The notes under the pieces: generated by a model | Told to the model about the DNA's origin: nothing | Database searches by the model: none | What the model saw: only the letters and a program-made list of their open reading frames with translations | Position numbers and translations under genes: made by a program | Source: Methanospirillum lacunae | GTDB taxonomy: Archaea > Halobacteriota > Methanomicrobia > Methanomicrobiales > Methanospirillaceae | Length of the DNA: 64,000 bases | Direction of reading: 5' to 3' | Assembly: GCF_003173355.1 (NCBI RefSeq) | Contig: NZ_QGMY01000018.1 | Location: 1 to 64,000 of the forward strand | Part shown: piece after piece, positions 32,078-64,000 of the stretch | Numbering within the stretch: the first letter of the stretch is position 1 | Layout of the letters: each line of letters opens with the position of its first letter

Positions 32078-32404
32078 ATGAACGCGCAATTTAAGAAAGG
32101 CGTTCTGGAGATGTGTGTGCTGGTGTTACTTGGCGAAAAAGATCGGTATGGATATGAACTGGTCCAGGATATCTCACATCGGTTCGAGATATCAGAAGGG
32201 AGTATTTATCCACTGCTTAGGCGCCTTCGAGATGAGGGGAATGTTGTTACATACCTTCAGGAATCTGCAGAAGGTCCGGCACGAAAGTATTACTCTCTCA
32301 CGGCAAAGGGCGGGATAATCAGAGATGAACTTGTTGCTGAATGGCAGGAGTTCATTGTTGCAGTTAACGGCCTGCTGGAAGGGGTGAGTCATGCAGAAGG
32401 ATGA
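32078..32404 (+). CDS. PadR-family transcriptional regulator
   Basis: This 108-residue protein is a full-length short Pad[30 protein letters not shown] is the first part of the winged helix, [24 protein letters not shown] the recognition helix and start of wing, and [24 protein letters not shown] the wing end and dimer helix. It is the first gene of an operon with a 14-bp overlap to the next one. PadR paired with a DUF1700 gene is a standard bacterial layout in which PadR represses its own operon. GGGAGAAACCG just before ATG can serve as ribosome binding site. Confidence 0.9.
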
Positions 32405-61009: not shown

Positions 61010-61034
61010 CTTTTTATCTGAAAAAAATCAGATA
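61010..61034 (-). terminator. Hairpin terminator of the ABC-2 permease gene
   Basis: TATCTGA-aaaaaa-TCAGATA is a perfect 7-bp stem (61015-61034) overlapping the permease stop codon. On the minus strand its loop is a T-run. It can end the ABC operon transcript. Confidence 0.6.
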
Positions 61035-61777
61035 GAGATTTTTCTGAAGAGGTATGTTCCGATAACCGTCATGACACAGGCAAATCCACCGATGACAAGG
61101 AGACTCAATATTGGACTTACCTGACTTGTCCCGGTAAGACCGTATCTAATCCCTTCGACCCCATAGGTGAGCGGATCAAACATGGTAATAGGGCCGAGCC
61201 AGGATGGAAGTGAACTTATCGGAAACAGTGCCCCGGAAAGACCGAAGATCGGGAATATTACAAAGTTCATGATGAGTTGAAACCCGGTCATGTCCTCCAT
61301 TCTTGATGCTATTGCAATCCCAAACGCGGTAAAGGATATTCCGATAAGCACCATGAAACCAAGGGCTATGAGAAATCCTAGAATACTCTGAACTTTCAGT
61401 CCCAGAAAGAGTGAGATTACCATGATCATAATACCCTGAAGGACCGCGGTTGTTGCACCACCAAAGGTTTGACCAAGCATGATCTCAAGTCTCGTTACCG
61501 GAGCAACCAGTGTCTCTTTCAAAAAACCGAACTGTTTATCCCAGATGATCTGAATCCCTGAAAACACCGAGGTGAAGAGTACACTCATTGCGACCATTCC
61601 AGGAATAAGGAACTGGATGTAATTCTCACCTAATCCAGGGATATTAACTACTGAATTCAGACCAAATCCCAGGAACAGCAGGAAGAACAGGGGCATACTG
61701 ATGCTTCCAATTATCCGGCTCTTGGATCGAATATACCGGATCATGCTCCGGAGCCAGATCGTATAGATGATATCCAT
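61028..61777 (-). CDS. ABC-2 type transporter permease
   Basis: The 249-residue protein has six membrane helices and the ABC-2 signature in the middle: PGMVAMSVLFTSVFSGIQIIWDKQFGFLKETLVAPVTRLEIMLGQ. It pairs with the ATPase encoded immediately upstream (adjacent, no gap). Such pairs (DrrB type) export drugs, lipids or glycans. Together with the PadR gene they form a regulated exporter; PadR-ABC operons commonly confer resistance to a small toxic compound. Substrate is unknown. Confidence 0.88.
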   Translation of the reverse strand: MDIIYTIWLRSMIRYIRSKSRIIGSISMPLFFLLFLGFGLNSVVNIPGLGENYIQFLIPGMVAMSVLFTSVFSGIQIIWDKQFGFLKETLVAPVTRLEIMLGQTFGGATTAVLQGIMIMVISLFLGLKVQSILGFLIALGFMVLIGISFTAFGIAIASRMEDMTGFQLIMNFVIFPIFGLSGALFPISSLPSWLGPITMFDPLTYGVEGIRYGLTGTSQVSPILSLLVIGGFACVMTVIGTYLFRKISI

Positions 61778-62764
61778 TTAATGCCTCACCATCCGGTGAT
61801 GCACCCGCATCGTCTCTTTCTTGTCGGTTTCTTCATCCCTTATTTTCTTCCCGGTGTACGAGAGAAAAACATCTTCGAGAGTTGGTTTATGAATGGATAC
61901 AGAAGTAACCGGGATCTGATACTGGTTTAAAGCAGTAATGACTTCACTGATATGCTGCTCTGCGTTCTGCAGGCTAATCCTGACTTCGTCGTTGTAAATC
62001 TCAAGGTTGGTTATCCAGGGTTCAGTAAGAATTTTCGAGGCCTTTTCGAACTCAGGTGTTGATATCGTTATAATATCTCCACCTATCCCATTTTTCAGAT
62101 TCTCTGGGGTATCAAGTGCTATGATCGTCCCATGGTCGATGATGGCTATCCGGTCACAGAGCCGGTCAGCCTCTTCCATGTAATGAGTTGTAAGAATGAT
62201 GGAAATATTCTTTTCTTTGCTTAACGTCGCGATATACTGCCAAAGATGGTTTCTTGTTTGGGGATCAAGACCTAGTGTTGGTTCATCGAGGAACAGGACA
62301 GAGGGATGATGAAGAAGACCACGGGCTATCTCAAGTCTTCGCCTCATACCCCCGGAAAAAGTCTTTACAATATCATTTTTTCGTTCATGTAACTCAACCA
62401 GCCGAAGCAGTTCGTCTATCCGTTGTTTACGGATTTCAGTTGGAATCCGGTAGAGTCGCCCATGGAAGTCCATGTTCTCTCCGGCGGTAAGTTCTTCATC
62501 AAGGCTTTGATCCTGAAACACAATACCTATCGCTTTTCTAACACCATCTTCATCTTTTTCGACATTTTTTCCCTGAATTGTCGCTAATCCTGATGTTGGT
62601 TTCTGCATGGTTGCAAGCATAGAGAGGGTTGTAGTTTTTCCGGCCCCATTCGGGCCAAGAAGACCGAATATTTCTCCCTGTTCTATCTCAAAGGATATGT
62701 GGTTTACCGCAACAAGATCGTTGAATTTTTTTGTAAGGTCTTTTACCAAAATCGCGGTTGTCAT
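61778..62764 (-). CDS. DrrA-type ABC transporter ATPase
   Basis: The 328-residue ATPase has Walker A GPNGAGKTT (37-45), Q-loop FQDQSLDEELTAGENM, signature FSGGMRRRLEIARGL, Walker B VLFLDEPTLGLD and the switch His in TTHYMEEADRL. The C-terminal domain (~220-310) with TLEDVFLSYTGKKIRDEE is the DrrA/NodI-type extension. It energises the adjacent ABC-2 permease. A gap of 136 bp separates it from the PadR gene, which lies upstream on the same strand. Confidence 0.92.
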   Translation of the reverse strand: MTTAILVKDLTKKFNDLVAVNHISFEIEQGEIFGLLGPNGAGKTTTLSMLATMQKPTSGLATIQGKNVEKDEDGVRKAIGIVFQDQSLDEELTAGENMDFHGRLYRIPTEIRKQRIDELLRLVELHERKNDIVKTFSGGMRRRLEIARGLLHHPSVLFLDEPTLGLDPQTRNHLWQYIATLSKEKNISIILTTHYMEEADRLCDRIAIIDHGTIIALDTPENLKNGIGGDIITISTPEFEKASKILTEPWITNLEIYNDEVRISLQNAEQHISEVITALNQYQIPVTSVSIHKPTLEDVFLSYTGKKIRDEETDKKETMRVHHRMVRH

Positions 62765-62900: not shown

Positions 62901-63380
62901 TCAAGATTCTTTTCCCGTAGAATTAACTGCCTCATTGATCCTGTTAATTTTTTGACTGATATTTTTTAGCAGCCCTGAGTGAGGTGCCAGTTTATCATCT
63001 GAAAGATCTTCAAGATATGACAGATTATTGTCTATTTCACTCAGAATTCCTTCAATAGAATCGGGGTGGCTCATGCCTCCGGTTTTAAACATACTAATTT
63101 CCTCAAGTCCTGCATCGGTAAGTTCGTACTTGCGATCTTCTCTTTTGATAAGCAAATTTTCTTCAACTGCTTTACTGAGTAACGGGTAGATAGATCCAGG
63201 AGATGGTTTCCAGTGCCCATGACTCATCACATCAATAGCATCCATGATCTCAGCTCCGTTCTTTGGGTCTTCACTCAGAATGTGGAGCACCAGAATTTTG
63301 AGGCCTCCATATCCCCTCAAATGCCCAATCCCGTGAAACCTTCTCATGAATGATCTCATTAATTCACGATTATCTCTCAT
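62901..63380 (-). CDS. PadR-family regulator of the ABC operon
   Basis: From ATG 63380 the protein has 159 residues; a GTG at 63389 adds three. Both lack a ribosome binding site. The winged helix GGLKILVLHILSEDPKNGAEIMDAIDVMS continues into the recognition part PSPGSIYPLLSKAVEENLLIKREDRKYELTDAGLEEI, and a C-terminal dimer helix region (~105-155) follows. It is the first gene of the PadR-ATPase-permease operon. The operator-like repeats at 63396-63434 overlap its promoter, so it probably represses its own operon until a ligand binds. Confidence 0.9.
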   Translation of the reverse strand: MRDNRELMRSFMRRFHGIGHLRGYGGLKILVLHILSEDPKNGAEIMDAIDVMSHGHWKPSPGSIYPLLSKAVEENLLIKREDRKYELTDAGLEEISMFKTGGMSHPDSIEGILSEIDNNLSYLEDLSDDKLAPHSGLLKNISQKINRINEAVNSTGKES

Positions 63381-63395
63381 GTTGATCACACGACA

Positions 63396-63434
63396 ATTCG
63401 ATATCGAATACTCGATATCGACAATACGATATTT
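63396..63434. promoter_or_regulatory. Triple operator-like repeat on a 14-bp pitch
   Basis: ATTCGATATCGAAT (63396-63409) is a perfect 14-bp palindrome, TCGATATCGA (63412-63421) a perfect 10-bp one, and CGATATTT (63427-63434) a half-degenerate third. Their centres lie at 63402/3, 63416/7 and 63430/1, exactly 14 bp apart. They are followed by TTTAATATAAAA (63440-63451), the likely minus-strand TATA region of the padR gene. The set is where a PadR dimer would block transcription start. Confidence 0.7.
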
Positions 63435-63568
63435 GGTGCTTTAATATAAAAAGTTATTCTTCTTTCAGTTTAACGAAGATTAACGTGATTTAAACGAATA
63501 AAATTTTGGAACAGATTTCCAGAGGAGAATGTTACGATTATATCATGGACAACATACCATGATCTCAT

Positions 63569-64000
63569 ATGAGTGTACCGGTTGACCGGTATTCACTGAT
63601 TCTTGAATATCTTCAAAAACGCTACCCGGTAGCAGTCTCAACCTCACAAATAGCCAGAGACTTGATGATGAACCGGGGCTCTGTCGCCAAATACCTGGAA
63701 GTACTTCTCACCCAGGGTCACGTGGTAATGAAACCATTTGGGAAAGCCAAGCAATATTCCTCATCACAAAAAATTCCGTTTGATGACCTTTTTGACTATC
63801 TTTCAGAGGCAATTGTAATCCTTGACATGGATCTCAAGATCCTGATGGTCAACAAAAGTTTCATCACAACATTCGATATCCGGACCGGAAAGAATGTTAT
63901 AGGAACCCCGCTAACCAGGCTTAATCTTGCCCTCCTGAATGATACTACGGTTCAGGGAAATATTTCCCGCATCCTTGAGTCAAAGACGTACATTAATGAG
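63569..64000 (+). CDS. HTH-PAS regulator or sensor, N-terminal part
   Basis: The ATG at 63569 opens a frame running past the right edge (144 codons seen). The first ~65 residues form a winged helix (SLILEYLQKRYPVAVSTSQIARDLMMNRGSVAKYLEVLLTQGHVVMKP, paraphrased here by its ends), and from about residue 75 a PAS domain begins (YLSEAIVILDMDLKILMVNKSF). This HTH-first, PAS-following layout is characteristic of Methanomicrobiales signal proteins, often ending in a kinase. The gene is divergent from padR, sharing the intergenic region with the triple operator. No ribosome binding site is visible. Confidence 0.75.
   Translation, partial: MSVPVDRYSLILEYLQKRYPVAVSTSQIARDLMMNRGSVAKYLEVLLTQGHVVMKPFGKAKQYSSSQKIPFDDLFDYLSEAIVILDMDLKILMVNKSFITTFDIRTGKNVIGTPLTRLNLALLNDTTVQGNISRILESKTYINE

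Follow-up and report, generated by a model that had tools for sequence, protein, structure and literature searches.

The locus described here lies near the end of a 64,000-nucleotide stretch of a Methanospirillum lacunae contig (the window), where a padR gene and two genes of a DrrAB-type ABC exporter share one strand and a gene for an HTH-PAS protein diverges from them. Its features are the following:

61028 to 61777, minus strand: DrrB-type ABC-2 permease (PF01061; TIGR01247 at 220 bits, just below the cut-off of 223)
61778 to 62764, minus strand: DrrA-type ABC exporter ATPase (TIGR01188, 367 bits against a cut-off of 312)
62901 to 63380, minus strand: padR, PF03551 wHTH regulator of 159 aa, with its ATG at 63378-63380
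63399 to 63406, no strand: box 1, CGATATCG, padR-proximal, made up of the right half of site B and an outer CG
63401 to 63418, minus strand: predicted PadR site B, ATATCGAGTATTCGATAT, dyad at 63409/63410, exact match, overlapping site A by ATAT
63413 to 63420, no strand: box 2, CGATATCG, the junction common to sites A and B
63415 to 63432, minus strand: predicted PadR site A, ATATCGTATTGTCGATAT, TATA-proximal, dyad at 63423/63424, exact ATATCG-N6-CGATAT
63427 to 63434, no strand: box 3, the "degenerate" CGATATTT, amounting to no more than the left half of site A
63440 to 63452, minus strand: TATA box of padR, TTTTTATATTAAA, a TATA-like element found at the same place in orthologs
63569 to 64000, plus strand: divergent HTH-PAS gene, truncated where the window ends, with weak winged-helix and PAS matches

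The gene order padR-DrrA-DrrB fits an LmrR-type autorepressor of an ABC exporter. The ATPase gene lies 3′ of padR in 7/7 Methanospirillum loci as well as in genomes G218 and G220, and not in G047; in one genome (L009) there is no such gene closer to padR than 1.5 kb, which counts against the exporter-operon reading.

The ATG start of padR is conserved in orthologs, and a GTG at 63389 lies upstream of the point where conservation sets in. The encoded protein belongs to PF03551, scoring 49 bits against a gathering cut-off of 27. Helices are predicted at residues 25-35, 42-52 and 61-73, wing strands at 77-79 and 85-87, and C-terminal helices at 109-125 and 128-156, so that the structure model (pLDDT 79, pTM 0.51) combines a wHTH with two C-terminal helices, as in the PadR fold. 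Its best fold matches are LmrR, PadR and VanR (E ~1e-4), and at the sequence level it matches 4esb at 1e-9 and 5x11 at 6e-5. The tyrosine Y65 (IYPLL) presumably corresponds to Y42 of Bacillus subtilis PadR (BsPadR), while the SGYDI tyrosine, Y20, we take to be replaced by NGAEI in clade 1, the group of PadRs delimited below, leaving one of the pair. Both residues constitute the signature of BsPadR (PMC6457526), and the missing one weakens the assignment to the BsPadR subgroup and leaves membership of PF03551 untouched.

A first-pass annotation of this DNA had described three boxes, two perfect and one degenerate, with centres 14 bp apart, located between the TATA region and padR. Direct reading of the sequence agrees with this description: the centres are exactly 14 bp apart, and the order along the transcript is TATA box, box 3, box 2, box 1 and ATG. 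The operator proper spans 63399-63434, the range originally given (63396-63451) including the TATA box. Lone CGATATCG boxes are not rare, as there are three in the 64-kb window where 0.6-0.8 would be expected. A pair of them at 14 bp, with an expectation of ~1e-5 per 64 kb, occurs a single time in the 3.74-Mb genome, and the complete pattern ATATCG-N6-CGATATCG-N6-CGATAT is expected ~5e-6 times per 3.74-Mb genome under a base-composition model. The exact form ATATCG-N6-CGATAT has two matches genome-wide, which are the overlapping sites at the padR promoter. Single-site genome scans allowing 1-2 mismatches gave 218 loose matches and no interpretable regulon, the reversed-pattern control being compositionally unequal.

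The arrangement is not particular to this genome. In eight orthologous padR promoters, one of them from another family, AATATCGTATTGTCGATATCGnnTAnnCGATAT is kept with little change and at about equal distance from the TATA-like element; invariant columns amount to 24/32 in the array, against 2/40 upstream and 3/28 downstream of it. When 82 PadR upstream regions were searched for TATCG-Nk-CGATA, the element with k=6 was found in all 13 clade-1 promoters (25 sites) and in none of the 69 promoters of more distant PadRs; within clade 1 there is essentially no other k, save k=20, a harmonic of the array. Clade 1 forms a single group in the tree, with support of 100/100 and 12 of the 13 members included. 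Conservation in 13/13 promoters, together with the low chance expectation of the 14-bp pair, bears out the earlier view of a padR-linked operator array. Furthermore, the search for arrays elsewhere that had been suggested was productive: ATATCG-N6-CGATATCG-N6-CGATAT, with up to two mismatches, matched in 12 of the 232 genomes of the class (reversed control, 0) and in 7 of 393 genomes of a phylum-wide sample, three of these being new. All strict two-site matches, from 15 archaeal genomes and with distant families included, adjoin a clade-1 padR. The boxes are thus most likely a strongly conserved, putative self-control switch placed before the drug-pump repressor gene of methanogenic archaea.

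The divergent gene would enter this picture in two ways. Binding of the array by a regulator other than PadR, for instance the HTH-PAS protein, would be favoured by the divergent position of its gene here and in G007; the gene is nonetheless missing beside the array elsewhere, and the array tracks clade-1 padR throughout the 15 genomes, distant families included, which makes this reading very improbable indeed. It had also been proposed that the array controls the HTH-PAS gene in addition to padR, since both genes have the intergenic region in common. This is hardly likely: among the eight orthologous loci the HTH-PAS gene adjoins the array only in G000 (the present genome) and G007, the array persists without it, and the gene has a TATA-like element of its own (~63540), ~105 bp from the array, and a start ~135 bp from it. 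Because the neighbourhood is not conserved, we reject the HTH-PAS gene as the target.

Most arrays contain two overlapping sites, and those of G047, G014, G248 and G266 contain three. Scans for direct and inverted repeats, compared with shuffles, reveal a lag of 14 bp in clade 1 and of 15 bp in other PadRs. Two loci have peculiarities of their own. In G014 (L068/L010), the clade-1 PadR has 25 extra residues inserted ahead of the recognition helix, a methyltransferase-like gene stands 3′ of padR in place of the ABC exporter, and the three-site array is accompanied by further sites in the leader. In G035 (L067/L019), the array is flanked by the gene of a small PadR (106 aa) on one side and by a divergent small ORF containing cysteines on the other, with a lone N6 site closer to padR.

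The question is then which element a PadR dimer would recognise. The first-pass annotation assigned one dimer to each CGATATCG box. The conserved unit, which also occurs alone, is most likely the 18-bp palindrome ATATCG-N6-CGATAT, the boxes being the junctions at which consecutive palindromes overlap by 4 bp (ATAT), so that the window most likely holds two putative dimer sites (63401-63418 and 63415-63432) and not three. Several observations argue for this unit: lone N6 sites exist (L019, L162, L160); in L098 both N6 sites are intact although the step between them is 13 bp instead of 14; and arrays mostly end with the inner half only. Indeed, CG is present at 76/84 inner half-site ends and at 12/42 outer array ends, a comparison biased by the fact that inner CGs help to define a site and by the non-independence of orthologs. 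Three dimers centred on the boxes at 14-bp spacing would agree with two of the boxes being perfect 8-bp palindromes, and with the padR-side outer CG, which is kept in most Methanospirillum orthologs (10/21 downstream array ends overall) and may mark a third, weak dimer. Box 3, for its part, never has an outer half in orthologs (the outer CG is missing in 8/8), and sites that stand alone take the form of N6 pairs and not of boxes. According to PMC5050560, the recognition helices of PadR are ~34 A apart, which makes an 8-bp palindrome with half-sites ~4 bp apart too short for one dimer.

The strongest line of evidence comes from a second operator group, TAGTnC-N6-GAACnG, which has the same N6 gap, different half-sites and a 15-bp step. 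Were dimers to bind at the junction, half-site spacing would differ between the two groups, whereas it would be equal if they bound at the N6 palindrome. The gap is in fact kept: GTNC-N6-GAAC accounts for 45 sites in 32 promoters, with at most four at any other gap below 20, and the junction changes from the even 8-bp palindrome of clade 1 to an odd 9-bp one, GAACnGTTC. Altogether, the reading with one dimer per box seems improbable, and the 18-bp palindrome is retained as the unit.

A regular tandem operator had been considered less usual for PadR. In this order an analogous N6 site is present in 33 of 69 more distant PadRs, mostly with 15-bp steps, and overlapping tandem operators, as far as sequence can tell, are common among its PadRs rather than exceptional. 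In a scan with the second pattern, 2/19 genomes (L181, L183) had matches away from any padR, which are taken as chance. Loci L103-L143 of other Methanomicrobiales (e.g., L114, L125, L143) present tandem overlapping TAGTnC-N6-GAACnGTTC-N6-GAAC in 15-bp steps, several of them directly after a TATA-like element. The recognition-helix region, WKPSPGSIYPLL in clade 1, reads WVPSKGTLYPML in PadRs of the second operator group, a difference that offers itself as the possible origin of the half-site change. A further, distant PadR-like gene lies in the window at 32090-32311 (plus strand, a frame of 112 aa), with ACTATCTTTCAATGCAAGATACT in its promoter; its homologs in other genera (relatives L146-L158) have near-perfect palindromes around CTTGCAATGCAAG, e.g., GTACCTTGCAATGCAAGATAC, which represent a third type of PadR operator.

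The geometry of the 18-bp unit is that of PadR operators. Known PadR half-sites lie 8-10 bp apart (PMC5428041, PMC3506622); the inverted repeat TATC-N8-GATA inside each site falls within this range, with a single gap peak in clade 1, and its half-site spacing equals that of the PadR consensus ATGT-N8-ACAT (PMC5428041). The half-sites ATGT/ACAT themselves are absent here, being ATATCG/CGATAT.

Directly observed are the sequence code with its conservation, the invariable gap of N6, and the fact that the code goes together with a single PadR clade. Building on these observations, we consider it quite probable that the array is an autorepressor operator covering the transcription start of an operon made up of padR and a DrrAB-type ABC exporter, with PadR dimers on two overlapping N6 sites. 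From the TATA box and the usual archaeal TATA-to-start spacing, padR transcription is predicted to start at ~63420, a position that site A would be expected to overlap. PadR dimers would recognise the 18-bp palindrome and could sit side by side with the central box in common. The dyads are 14 bp, i.e., ~1.3 turns, apart, which corresponds to ~120 degrees around the helix, and the two dimers would therefore lie on different faces. Covering the start just 3′ of the TATA box, they would block recruitment of RNA polymerase and shut off padR and, through co-transcription, the DrrAB-type exporter as well, until a ligand, perhaps an exported toxic compound, released PadR.

Simultaneous occupancy of sites that overlap by 4 bp could, nevertheless, be sterically impossible. 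The two sites might then compete, with never more than one dimer on the DNA, and the additional site would raise occupancy or set a second affinity step. Besides the 4 bp common to both, the sites are unequally conserved (the spacer of site A, TATTGT, is nearly invariant in eight orthologs, whereas site B keeps its half-sites and its spacer differs among species), and their roles may consequently differ. We regard competition as rather unlikely, given that the fixed 14- or 15-bp phase in two groups suggests a geometric constraint, as for cooperative neighbours, and that two-dimer occupancy is known for LmrR (PMC5428041) and FadRSa (PMC6449355). Going beyond joint occupancy of both sites, a more tentative idea, plausible without being the likelier outcome, is that the PadRs of archaea assemble cooperatively on DNA in runs of dimers, neighbours sharing half a junction in a constant phase (14 or 15 bp by group), in which operator length (two or three overlapping sites) would set the steepness of autoregulation. 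If so, the operator would be modular.

PadR operators for autoregulation next to ABC exporter genes have been described before. The fixed-step overlapping tandem layout in two half-site groups was not found in the open-access papers searched, and subscription journals may contain an earlier account; nor did the open-access literature searched yield operator studies of PadRs from methanogenic archaea or a description of cooperative dimer-run assembly for PadR. For two groups of PadRs in methanogenic archaea, the data yield a DNA code open to testing, and they illustrate that what looks like the repeating unit of an array can be the place where neighbouring sites overlap and not the site itself. 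Moreover, two groups with equal gap, different half-sites and different steps (14 and 15 bp) constitute a natural experiment on the packing of wHTH dimers on DNA.

The closest parallel is lmrR-lmrCD of Lactococcus lactis, where a PadR-type autorepressor beside a multidrug ABC exporter acts on an inverted-repeat operator (PMC5428041, PMC4534193). LmrR places two dimers on one operator (PMC5428041) and multiple dimers on its own promoter (PMC5428041, PMC4534193). Unlike the protein considered here, it is bacterial and of ~110 aa, with half-sites ATGT/ACAT at 8-10 bp, and the available portions of both articles do not describe a regular 14-bp overlapping array. Bacillus subtilis PadR (PadR-1 subfamily; PDB 5X11, PMC6457526) likewise has a PF03551 wHTH with a C-terminal helical domain, and its ATGT-N8-ACAT spacing equals that of TATC-N8-GATA, but its half-sites and target gene are others, and its signature Y20 is missing here. 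In Clostridium difficile, cdPadR1 occupies two or more inverted repeats in the promoter of its own gene, giving several shifted complexes; its repeats are, however, TACT-N11/12-AGTA, and a fixed-phase overlapping array is not described in the available text (PMC5050560). Outside the family, PMC5428041 reports two dimers per operator, as proposed here, for QacR and DtxR, and PMC6449355 does so for archaeal FadRSa; these are TetR- and DtxR-family proteins without multi-step arrays. Finally, Ss-LrpB of Sulfolobus (PMC2995911) belongs to the Lrp family and has separate dimer sites, with DNA wrapped around three interacting dimers, but it resembles our proposal in being an archaeal autoregulator with three cooperatively bound sites in its own control region.
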